This document shows, one piece after another, positions 46,101 through 52,100 of a stretch of 64,000 bases of DNA. The notes beneath the pieces are model-generated. The model searched no databases, was not told where the DNA came from, and saw nothing but the letters and a program-made list of their open reading frames with translations. Origin of the DNA: Notolepis coatsorum. Taxonomy: Eukaryota > Chordata > Actinopteri > Aulopiformes > Paralepididae. The position numbers and the translations under genes are program-made. The DNA lies in assembly GCA_963971535.1 (NCBI GenBank), contig OZ020585.1, forward strand, positions 26,661,154 to 26,725,153. Reading direction: 5' to 3'. Each line of letters starts with the position of its first letter. Positions within the stretch are counted from its first letter, which is position 1.

Positions 46101-49100
46101 GACAGCACTAAGTCCTGTACAAACACTCTAAATGACAGTACTAAGTCCTGTACGAACACTCTAAAGGACAGCACTAAGTCCTTCTGTACGAACACTCTAA
46201 AGGACAGCACTAAGTCCTTCTGTACAAACACTCTAAAGGACAGCACTAAGTCCTTCTGTACAAACACTCTAAAGGACAGCACTAAGTCCTGTACAAACAC
46301 TCTAAAGGACAGCACTAAGTCCTGTACAAACACTCTAAAGGACAGCACTAAGTCCTGTACAAACACTCTAAAGGACAGCACTAAGTCCTTCTGTACAAAC
46401 ACTCTAAAGGACAGCACTAAGTCCTGTACAAACACTCTAAAGGACAGCACTAAGTCCTGTACAAACACTCTAAAGGACAGCACTAAGTCCTGTACAAACA
46501 CTCTAAAGGACAGTACTAAGTCCTGTACAAACACTCTAAAGGACAGCACTAAGTCCTGTACAAACACTCTAAAGGACAGTACTAAGTCCCTCTGTACAAA
46601 CACTCTAAAGGACAGCACTAAGTCCTTCTGTACAAACACTCTAAAGGACAGCACTAAGTCCTTCTGTACAAACACTCTAAAGGACAGCACTAAGTCCTGT
46701 ACAAACACTCTAAAGGACAGTACTAAGTCCTGTACAAACACTCTAAAGGACAGCACTAAGTCCTGTACAAACACTCTAAAGGACAGCACTAAGTCCTGTA
46801 CAAACACTCTAAAGGACAGCACTAAGTCCTTCTGTACAAACACTCTAAAGGACAGCACTAAGTCCTGTACAAACACTCTAAAGGACAGCACTAAGTCCTG
46901 TACAAACACTCTAAAGGACAGTACTAAGTCCTGTACAAACACTCTAAAGGACAGCACTAAGTCCTGTACAAACACTCTAAAGGACAGCACTAAGTCCTGT
47001 ACAAACACTCTAAAGGACAGCACTAAGTCCTGTACAAACACTCTAAAGGACAGCACTAAGTCCTGTACAAACACTCTAAAGGACAGTACTAAGTCCTGTA
47101 CAAACACTCTAAAGGACAGCACTAAGTCCTGTACAAACACTGTAAAGGACAGCACTAAGTCCTTCTTTACAAACACTCTAAAGGACAGCACTAAGTCCTG
47201 TACAAACACTCTAAAGGACAGCACTAAGTCCTGTACGAACACTCTAAAGGACAGCACTAAGTCCTGTACAAACACTCTAAAGGACAGCACTAAGTCCTTC
47301 TTTACAAACACTCTAAAGGACAGCACTAAGTCCTGTACAAACACTCTAAAGGACAGCACTAAGTCCTGTACAAACACTCTAAAGGACAGCACTAAGTCCC
47401 TCTGTACAAACACTCTAAAGGACAGCACTAAGTCCTTCTGTACAAACACTCTAAAGGACAGCACTAAGTCCTTCTGTACAAACACTCTAAAGGACAGCAC
47501 TAAGTCCTGTACAAACACTCTAAAGGACAGCACTAAGTCCTGTACAAACACTCTAAAGGACAGTACTAAGTCCTGTACAAACACTCTAAAGGACAGCACT
47601 AAGTCCTTCTTTACAAACACTCTAAAGGACAGCACTAAGTCCTTCTTTACAAACACTCTAAAGGACAGCACTAAGTCCTTCTGTACAAACACTGTATGAA
47701 CCCAGGTTTCTGCGCTGGCAGGCTAGGGCTTAGACCTACCCAGTTCTGCTTAGACACTACCCAGCCGCACCTGTACTAAGTTCTTCTGTACAAACACTCA
47801 AAATGACAGAACTAATCCTTCTATACCAACACTCAAAATGACAGAATTAAGTCCTTCTATACCAACACTCAAAATGACAGAACTAAGTCCTTCTATACCA
47901 ACACTCAAAATGACAGTAATCTTTCTGCCATGGTACTGACACTAACAAGGACAGTTTGGCCTTCATGAACAGCGGCCTCTTTGTTTATGCCCAAATTCCC
48001 TTCCTGTGCCATGACATTTGTGATAAATCATTAAATAGGCATCACATTTGATTAAGTTCAGTCTGATCATCGGCATCATCACAATCCACTTTGGCACATT
48101 GCCATGTCTCTCCTTGCTCTCCTCCATTCAGCAAAAGTAAATCATGTAGCTTTTCCCCCCGACTTATGTGCGTTTCAGAGAGGAAGTCGGCCTTTTTTGA
48201 GGAGGAGGAGTCTGAGCTCTTCATCGAGGTGGACTGTTTCAACGTGGAGCCAGTGCTGGGCCCCGCCCCCGAGGGGTTGTCACAGCAACAGGTACTGAAC
48301 CCAGCGCTCACAGGTCTACCATTCACAAAGACACTGGAATGTCACTATGTTTAATCAACCATATTCTAAAGTATTGCAAAGTGTTGCACTAGTAAGAAAA
48401 TGGGTGATTAGACTGTTAGCAGCATTCCAGTCTCCGTGTGTGTACATTAGACCCTTTTACTGAATTGCTTGTTTCCTGGAAGATAAGCTATCTCCCATGC
48501 TTGTGGCTGCACTGCAACTGCCTACTTAATGTTAATAAAGCGGCTGTAAACATGTTCATACTGTATGTGTTTATACAAGCTTAAAGCCATACCAATGAGT
48601 AAAAAAGACTAATACATTTGCTTTCTATGTTGCAGCTGGTGAGACGGTGTATACTGGGCTCCATTCTGGAGAGTGAGAAGAACTATCTGGACGCACTGAA
48701 GAGGATACTGGAGGCACGTAGATCCCGGTGCAGATCACATCAAATCAAATGTATTTGTAAAGCCCGCAAACACAGGTTAATGTCCCCGTGGGCTGGACAA
48801 GTCAAGAAGAAACATCATAATAATAAATAAAAAAAACTAAAAACACATCATGAAATACACAACAACACTCCCAGACATATCCCAGCGAAGGGCAGCCTTT
48901 TCCCCCTCTCTCAGCAATACGAGAAGCCCCTGTCCCAGATATCGAGCCAAGGCTAACTCTCCGTCTTTTTCCCCCTCTCAGCAATACGAGAAGCCCCTGT
49001 CCCAGATCGAGCCAAGGCTAACTCTCCGTCTTTTCCCCCTCTCTCAGCAATACGAGAAGCCCCTGTCCCAGATCGAGCCAAGGCTAACTCTCCGTCTTTT

Positions 49101-52100
49101 CCCCCTCTCTCAGCAATACGAGAAGCCCCTGTCCCAGATCGAGCCAAGGCTAACTCTCCGTCTTTTCCCCCTCTCTCAGCAATACGAGAAGCCCCTGTCC
49201 CAGATCGAGCCAAGGCTAACTCTCCGTCTTTTCCCCCTCTCTCAGCAATACGAGAAGCCCCTGTCCCAGATCGAGCCAAGGCTAACTCTCCGTCTTTTCC
49301 CCCTCTCTCAGCAATACGAGAAGCCCCTGTCCCAGATCGAGCCAAGGCTAACTCTCTGTCTTTTCCCCCTCTCTCAGCAATACGAGAAGCCCCTGTCCCA
49401 GATCGAGCCAAGGCTGCTGAGCGACAGGAAGCTGAAGATGACATTCTATCGTATCCGGGAGATCCTGCAGTGCCACTTCCTGTTCCAGATCGCCCTGGCC
49501 AGCCGCGTGGGCGAGTGGGACAACCTGGAGATGATCGGCGACGTCTTTGTGGCATCGGTGAGCCGGCTGTCGCCTGTGCCGTGTGTAGCTCGAGCCGTAT
49601 GGTGCTGTTTTTAAAATGCATTAAAATAGCCGTTGGCTGCGGAGGTGGGTGAACGTTTCCCTGGACTCAGGCTTTTTTCACAACACTTCCCCATTCTGTA
49701 CGAATGGGTCTGATGATTAGATCACTCTCAGAAGCTCTCTATTTTGCCACAGACACACACACATGAACACACACACACACATGAACACACACACAAGCAC
49801 ACACACACACACACATTAACACACACACACACACATTAACACACACACGCGCACACACACATTAACACACACACACACACACACACACACACACACACAC
49901 ACACACACACACACACACACACTGCACTCTAGTCTGTTTCCTCAGAGGATGTACTCCACCCCTTTCTGGCTGCCTAGCAACTCATGCAGGGTTCTTCAAA
50001 ACAAAAGAGCGCGTCTCCCACAGTCTCACCCGTCTCATCTCCTTCCTGCTTCTTGTTATCATACAACCGCCGGGATCGTGACCCCTGGCCTGACATCAGA
50101 GGATCAGGGAGACACACACGCCGTGTGCCTGCTGCCCTCTCCATCCTCCCTCCCTTCTCTCATCCCTGTCCAACCCCCACCCCCCCCCACCCCTTCTCCC
50201 AAAAGTAACAGATCACTTTACTTATTACTCCCAGAGGAAAGTGACCATTTATTTACACTACTTATTGTTGTTTGCATTGCACCATCTGCAGTTCGTTCTC
50301 TCTCAACGGGTCAGGAGGTGGAGGTCTGTTGCATAGCCAGGCCTTGCCTGTTGGTCTTGGTCACGTGGCAGTCAGGAGAGTGTCTTTACGTTGTTTCAGC
50401 AGCAACCTGTGTGGAAGTGGGGTCGCGCACACTGCTGTCTTGACCAGGATTATAGAGTGTAGACAGTGCCTACATTTTTGTTTTATCATTTGAAAATACA
50501 ATTATCTTGCAATGAAGTCCCCCCCTCCCCCCCCCCCCCCCCTACTACGTCCCCCCTACAATACAGAGAGAAAGATAAACTATGCAAATAACAATCTATT
50601 CGTTAACTGTACTGTGATTACTGAAATGTACTTACATTTTATTTATTTTTTTACTCTTACTATTTTACAGGAAAAACTAATGTGATTACAGTAACGACGT
50701 GTTTGTTACTTTGTAAGGATTACGCCAAACACTAGTTCTGACTTCTTGACTGTACATGATATGCATCGGCTATATAGCAGCCCTCTAATACTTTAAGATG
50801 TAAACATTCCTCTGTGTATACACTCTTATGAGTACATTTGCGTTTGATTTGTCCCAATAAGTGTAATGCACCGGCCCACCAATACAGACACCAGGTACAG
50901 ACTAGGGATGGGCGTGAGTAATTAATCGATTACTTGTAGCTATAAGAAAAAAAAATTACTTATTTTTTTTTACATATTTTTTCACATGTATGTGTACGAT
51001 TATAACTGTTTGTTGGTTTCCTTAAACATATACGTGAATGAACAAAAATAAGTAAAAAAAAAAAATTTTTAATAAAAAAGAAATCAATATATTTTTTTAC
51101 ACCCGGTACAGACACCAGGTACAGACACCCGGTACAGACACCCGGTACAGACACCCGGTACAGACACCCGGTACAGACACCCGGTACAGACACCCGATAC
51201 AGACACCCGGTACAGACACCCGGTACAGACACCACCCGGTACAGACACCACCCGGTACAGACACCACCAGGTACAGACACCCGGTACAGACACCAGGTAC
51301 AGACACCACCCGGTACAGACACCACCCGGTACAGACACCACCCGGTACAGACACCACCCGGTACAGACACCACCAGGTACAGACACCCGGTACAGACACC
51401 AGGTACAGACACCCGGTACAGACACCAGGTACAGACACCCGGTACAGACACCCGGTACAGACACCCGGTACAGACACCAGGTACAGACACCACCCGGTAC
51501 AGACACCAGGTACAGACACCCGGTACAGACACCAGGTACAGACACCCGGTACAGACACCAGGTACAGACACCAGGTACAGACACCAGGTACAGACACCAG
51601 GTACAGACACCAGGTACAGACACCCGGTACAGACACCCGGTACAGACACCAGGTACAGACACCAGGTACAGACACCAGGTACAGACACCAGGTACAGACA
51701 CCAGGTACAGACGCCCGGTACAGACGCCCGGTACAGACACCAGGTACAGACACCCGGTACAGACACCCGGTACAGACACCCGGTACAGACACCAGGTACA
51801 GACACCAGGTACAGACACCAGGTACAGACACCCGGTACAGACGCCCGGTACAGACGCCCGGTACAGACGCCAGGTACAGACACCCGGTACAGACACCCGG
51901 TACAGACACCCGGTACAGACACCCGGTACAGACACCCGGTACAGACACCCGGTACAGACACCACCCGGTACAGACACCAGGTACAGACACCCGGTACAGA
52001 CACCAGGTACAGACACCCGGTACAGACACCAGGTACAGACACCAGGTACAGACACCCGGTACAGACACCCGGTACAGACACCCGGTACAGACACCAGGTA

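Follow-up and report, generated by a model that had tools for sequence, protein, structure and literature searches.

Eight tandem copies of an intron-exon boundary in an ARHGEF10L-like gene of Notolepis coatsorum and the choice among the predicted 3' splice sites

Which copy of a 3' splice site is used when several of them stand in a row before a single exon? This question is raised by an exon of Notolepis coatsorum that is preceded by an array of 66-bp units. We analyzed the array within a window of 64,000 nucleotides of contig OZ020585.1; the window is the whole stretch of DNA under analysis, and positions are those of the window unless another locus is named. The gene that carries the array looks like ARHGEF10L. 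A second gene, located on contig C44, has exons that correspond to those in the window, and we take the two to be an ARHGEF10L-like gene and its ARHGEF10-like paralogue.

Structure and reading frame of the array

The exons on both sides of the array, here named J and K, are 59% (27 residues) and 63% identical to the respective exons of the paralogue. The joined peptide was recognized as Pfam RhoGEF (PF00621, E 6.4e-13), which confirmed the location within the DH domain given in the first-pass annotation. In the paralogue an intron lies at the equal position, likewise in phase 0; its donor is a GT, and no array was present at the matching intron/exon position. When the 3.42-Gb assembly was searched with the array stretch, matches were obtained at two places, in the window and at the exon of the paralogue, so that the array was found at one locus in this sequence search, in which very common words were skipped. 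The features of the region are as follows:

48636..48713, plus strand: exon J, the upstream exon of the DH domain, with a phase-0 end
48714..48719, plus strand: GC donor GCACGT (GAG/GCACGT, the slash marking the exon end), from which J reads in frame into acceptors 2-8
48734..48891, no strand assigned: cut dispersed repeat, taking up the greater part of the intron upstream of the array and abutting acceptor 1
48892..48914, plus strand: acceptor 1, with tract and CAG and 17 AG-free nt upstream
48897-49415, plus strand: the 66-bp array, eight copies, each made of an intron end (28 nt) and an exon start (38 nt)
48915..48981, plus strand: interval between acceptors 1 and 2, 67 bp, with the indels of the array (+AT, +T, -CT)
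48951..48957, then from 49016, 49082, 49148, 49214, 49280 and 49346, plus strand: GGCTAAC seven times, once before each of acceptors 2-8
48982..49377, plus strand: acceptors 2-7 with six 66-bp in-phase intervals
49378..49557, plus strand: exon K proper, 180 nt, with acceptor 8 at its start and the donor GTGAGC at its end

TRF reported a period of 66, 7.8 copies, 98% matches and a score of 999 for 48897-49415. The range 48900..49380 proposed earlier therefore described a real array of slightly longer extent. The 28-nt intron end of the unit consists of AACTCTCCGTC followed by TTTTCCCCCTCTCTCAG. Copies 3-7 are identical to one another and copy 8 carries a single C>T. In all eight acceptors 16 of the 17 nt before the CAG are pyrimidines (Ypct 0.94), and CTCTCT is present in the tracts. 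Each copy thus holds a tract and an AG, as in a duplication of the CBS 844ins68 type, and the direct repeat extends across intron end and exon start in eight copies, as expected of a tandemly duplicated 3' splice site. Since native sequence on either side is duplicated by the unit, the inserted block is more suitably placed after a stretch of 13 residues.

Exon-like starts preceded by CAG were found at 48915, 48982, 49048, 49114, 49180, 49246, 49312 and 49378, that is with a spacing of 67 once and then of 66 six times. When J was joined to K through acceptors 2-8 the reading remained in frame and open, with exons from 576 down to 180 nt. Every further in-frame acceptor would add one more 22-residue block, the last of which carries TLCLFPLSQ. 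From acceptor 1 the reading ended at a stop 14 codons after the exon start, at codon 40 of the joined J+K. These spacings and readings bear out the earlier description of eight 3' splice sites, seven of them in phase and extended by stop-free blocks of 22 codons, with an out-of-phase acceptor 1 (67 bp). Protein forms with up to six extra 22-residue blocks could in principle be made.

As predicted here, the in-frame joining of J and K needs the GC donor, which would make the J-K intron a GC-AG intron. The GT at 48718 (+4) was rejected as donor of J since it places all eight acceptors out of frame. The paralogue carries GT where the J-K intron has GC. By a matrix that penalises GC, the J donor scores 2.0, and four GT donors of this gene score 4.8-7.1, two further, misplaced donors being left out of the comparison. 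A second GC donor of the same gene is located at 54113 (CAG/GCATGA), giving two GC among eight exon ends, and the paralogue has GT at both matching positions.

The site GGCTAAC arises at each joint between two copies, where the end of the exon stretch (GGCT) meets the start of the intron stretch (AAC). It sits 25-26 nt before acceptors 2-8, within 28-29 AG-free nt. Because each of them is preceded by this branch-point-like site, acceptors 2-8 look like complete, separate 3' splice sites, 66 nt apart and each with its own tract and candidate branch point. Upstream of acceptor 1 no yTnAy was found between 15 and 60 nt. The branch-point score was a simple match count, compared with 12 control acceptors from the two genes, several of them placed a few bases off; two of the 12 (paralogue exon K, 20201) score no better than acceptor 1, so that acceptor 1 is not proved to be dead.

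The left edge of the array has a distinct composition. Copy 1 lacks the 11 nt AACTCTCCGTC in front of its tract; they precede the later tracts, in copy 8 with a single change. The cut repeat is joined to the tract of copy 1 by a few bases. Of 1384 candidates for this dispersed repeat 40 matches were scored, the window copy included. By a pattern test the element continues beyond the end point of the window copy in 17 of the 19 other copies that were aligned; the exceptions are L032, which differs by one base, and L020, which has a gap at that point. Either a deletion or an insertion that cost target bases would account for such an edge. Filler DNA introduced at the first duplication is a possible alternative.

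Boundary arrays elsewhere in the genome

The first-pass annotation had treated the array as singular; further arrays across exon boundaries were found in the genome. One is located in the same gene, followed by a longer array:

45052..45187, plus strand: second boundary array of the ARHGEF10L-like gene, 42-bp unit, exon end and donor CATG/GTATGA three times, in frame; the exon that bears it ends at 45070
45160..47693, plus strand: 33/36-bp array, 75.2 copies (TRF), resembling the 42-bp unit and without the CATG/GTATGA donor

The paralogue (L006, about 8557-9169, minus strand) has an exon end, CTGCTACAG/GTAAGC, of which 12 near copies lie inside a range of 700 bp, and reading past the first of these donors leads to a stop. 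A tyrosine-phosphatase locus (L076, 177-524) carries four units of 91 bp, each with a tract, a CAG and the start of an exon. Here, the last acceptor alone is readable; two others are out of phase and one is in phase and interrupted by stops. The 91-bp units also contain the telomere-like GTTAGGGTTAGGGTTAA. In total, two of four boundary arrays are in frame, both in the ARHGEF10L-like gene.

Weaker cases were a myosin locus (L045, 1739-2031), with the donor GTGAGTACAG and about three exon bases in 37-bp units, L067, a phosphatase locus in which copies of the exon end and its donor stand about 260 bp further downstream, and L084, another phosphatase locus, with a donor within a 22-bp array of 2.2 copies. 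For L045 the donor junction 20-mer had no copy.

Three further repeats contain sequences like those of splice sites. An intronic 32-bp array of 46.2 copies (TRF) at 54945-56419 has a consensus unit with the donor-like CAGGGTAAGA. At L010 (3159-3239) a 40-bp unit of 2.0 copies reads like a whole candidate acceptor (CTAAC, tract, CAG). At L082 (351-414) a branch-point-like CTAAC and a tract lie in a 31-bp repeat of 2.1 copies directly before a phosphatase exon, and the AG is single.

The frequency of copied junctions was determined with the 20-mer centred on each exon boundary, a copy being counted at up to 3 mismatches within 700 bp. In this small sample, in which some of the 30 ARHGEF10 boundaries were only roughly placed, a copied junction was present at 4 of 92 boundaries, or at 3 of 91 without the 66-bp array. 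By group, the two ARHGEF10 genes had such a copy at 3 of their 30 boundaries (66-bp array included), the phosphatase set at 1 of 27 and the myosin set at 0 of 35. According to TRF, 4 of the 92 boundaries lie inside an array. As not placeable we dropped 13 of 40 phosphatase boundaries (20 loci) and 9 of 44 boundaries in 22 myosin loci; eight of 30 myosin loci were dropped altogether, and some myosin loci are near-duplicates. Among flanking positions 60-450 nt outside the boundaries, 432 of 1814 had a copy; when the flanks of the boundaries counted as cases were left out, 344 of 1714 did. Among the 92 boundaries no enrichment of arrays at splice sites was found, the boundaries being matched less often than their flanks. 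Boundaries are spared relative to introns, but they are not exempt.

How often would such an array be in phase and open by chance? The 28-nt intron ends of 29 acceptors were open in 69 of 87 frame tests, so a boundary array is expected to be both in phase and open in about 1/3 x 0.79, that is about 0.26 of cases.

Choice among the acceptors

Based on this composition we propose that a tandem duplication across the intron-J/exon-K boundary gave rise to a minisatellite, which would have grown to eight copies. Each joint creates GGCTAAC, and every unit after the first thereby resembles a full 3' splice site with branch-point-like site, tract and AG. At the left edge, now occupied by the cut repeat, sequence would have been lost, leaving acceptor 1 without the 11 nt and without such a site. 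The seven near-equal acceptors would then compete at U2/U2AF recognition. Acceptor 8, with the 180-nt exon, would be used most, acceptors 2-7 would yield minor forms, in frame and longer by 1 to 6 blocks of 22 residues, and the in-frame period would be a matter of luck. We favour this explanation, a boundary minisatellite with first-step competition, a dominant acceptor 8 and minor longer forms, with somewhat better than even confidence from the sequence at hand. New exons inside the array were considered and rejected: the best GT there scores -5.0 as a donor by a scoring matrix, and no internal exon is expected.

It had been suggested that an upstream acceptor could be favoured by scanning from the branch point. 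This was not borne out, because acceptors 2-8 each have their own candidate branch point and tract; the acceptor is probably chosen by competition at first recognition rather than by AG scanning. According to PMC9225289, when 3' sites are separated by more than 12-20 nt, their definition typically takes place at first recognition and involves different tracts and branch points. In human pairs of this first-step kind the upstream site is preferred overall, strongly if both introns are short; once both introns exceed 250 nt, the preference is described as significantly reduced and is not called reversed (PMC9225289). For acceptors 2-8 the upstream intron measures 268-664 nt and the downstream intron 2706 nt, so the proximity rule gives no firm answer. 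At 268 nt, close to the turning point of 250 nt, acceptor 2 could win. For exon size, the same source reports from human 5' site data that smaller exons are preferred, and that with long introns exons are well included only below about 500 nt (PMC9225289); both points speak for exon-proximal use.

It is to be weighed whether acceptor 2, the first complete one, is used most through proximity, in which case the usual protein would contain six extra blocks (132 residues). The intron of 268 nt, the Reed and Maniatis rule and the overall upstream preference, both as given in PMC9225289, speak for it. However, its exon would measure 576 nt before an intron of 2706 nt, and the nearest real duplication of this kind points the other way: in human CBS 844ins68, a 68-bp duplication of the intron 7/exon 8 junction, the distal copy is strongly favoured according to the passage on it in PMC2630376, a choice that we count toward the exon-proximal acceptor 8. 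Upstream use would also ruin the 91-bp array of L076, whose readability from the last acceptor alone likewise counts toward exon-proximal use, assuming that this gene is used and functional. We regard dominance of acceptor 2 as unlikely. The opposite extreme, that acceptor 8 alone is ever used, we hold to be improbable. PTB prefers CUCUCU-type tracts, and through it the repeated CUCUCU tracts might keep acceptors 2-7 silent; CTCTCT does occur within the tracts and the CBS precedent would fit (PMC2630376, in the same passage), but site and tract of acceptors 2-7 match those of acceptor 8 almost letter for letter.

Could the cell tune the DH domain through the seven in-frame acceptors, with the frame held by selection? 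The full motifs of acceptors 2-8, which the out-of-frame acceptor 1 lacks, and the second in-frame boundary array within the gene would agree with such a regulated ladder. Against it, roughly one array in four should be in phase and open anyway, neither the paralogue array nor that of L076 is readable, and near-identical copies hold no signal of selection; we judge this reading to be quite improbable. A unique peptide ladder under selection was rejected as the default, given that other boundary arrays exist and that the frame is near chance. An assembly error in the copy number appears very improbable. The copies are near-identical and a single assembly was available, but 519 bp is short for long reads, if such were used, and the differences in copies 1, 2 and 8 mark the ends of the array.

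For the genome as a whole we offer a broader proposal only tentatively, and with clearly less than even confidence. Junction-spanning minisatellites would be present at a few percent of exon boundaries, at donors as well as acceptors, giving ladders of near-identical sites on thousands of exons. The genome would tolerate them because the copy nearest to the exon would be chosen reliably by the spliceosome, and units that are a multiple of three, as at exon K, would leak repeat-bearing forms.

An exon with a ladder of seven acceptors that are nearly identical and seem to be complete offers a natural test of the choice among equal 3' splice sites by position only. With more boundary arrays in a small sample, one long-read transcriptome could measure the rules of position across many natural cases, because donor and acceptor arrays, in and out of frame, recur in the genome.

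Comparison with known duplicated splice sites

The closest precedents of the 66-bp array are the CBS 844ins68 duplication and the CBS 31-bp VNTR. In the former, intron end and exon start are likewise tandemly duplicated over a similar length (PMC2630376). The passage there speaks of a 'splice donor', but Romano 2002, as listed among its references, names a 3' splice site in the title. CBS 844ins68 differs in having one extra copy instead of seven and a length that is not a multiple of three. Furthermore, the distal choice was measured in CBS, whereas the 66-bp array is known from its sequence alone. The VNTR, c.1444_1467+7(16_21), is by its name a minisatellite over exon end and intron start with 16-21 copies (PMC2630376, in part). 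Unlike the array at exon K it lies on the donor side, its 31 bp are not a multiple of three, and it is polymorphic in people.

In human duplicated genes internal tandem repeats at exon-intron boundaries, minisatellites with units of about 30 bp and about 4 copies, can alter splicing (PMC2812944). They are described there as a source of novel introns from cryptic sites, and the part of that source considered here describes no ladder of whole acceptors. No such ladder was found in the literature by title and opening of the abstract either, a scope outside which most subscription papers fall.

Close tandem acceptors of the NAGNAG type lie a few nt apart, share a branch point and are often in frame. 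The array resembles them in offering alternative 3' sites, often in frame, and differs in that acceptors 2-8 each have their own candidate branch point.
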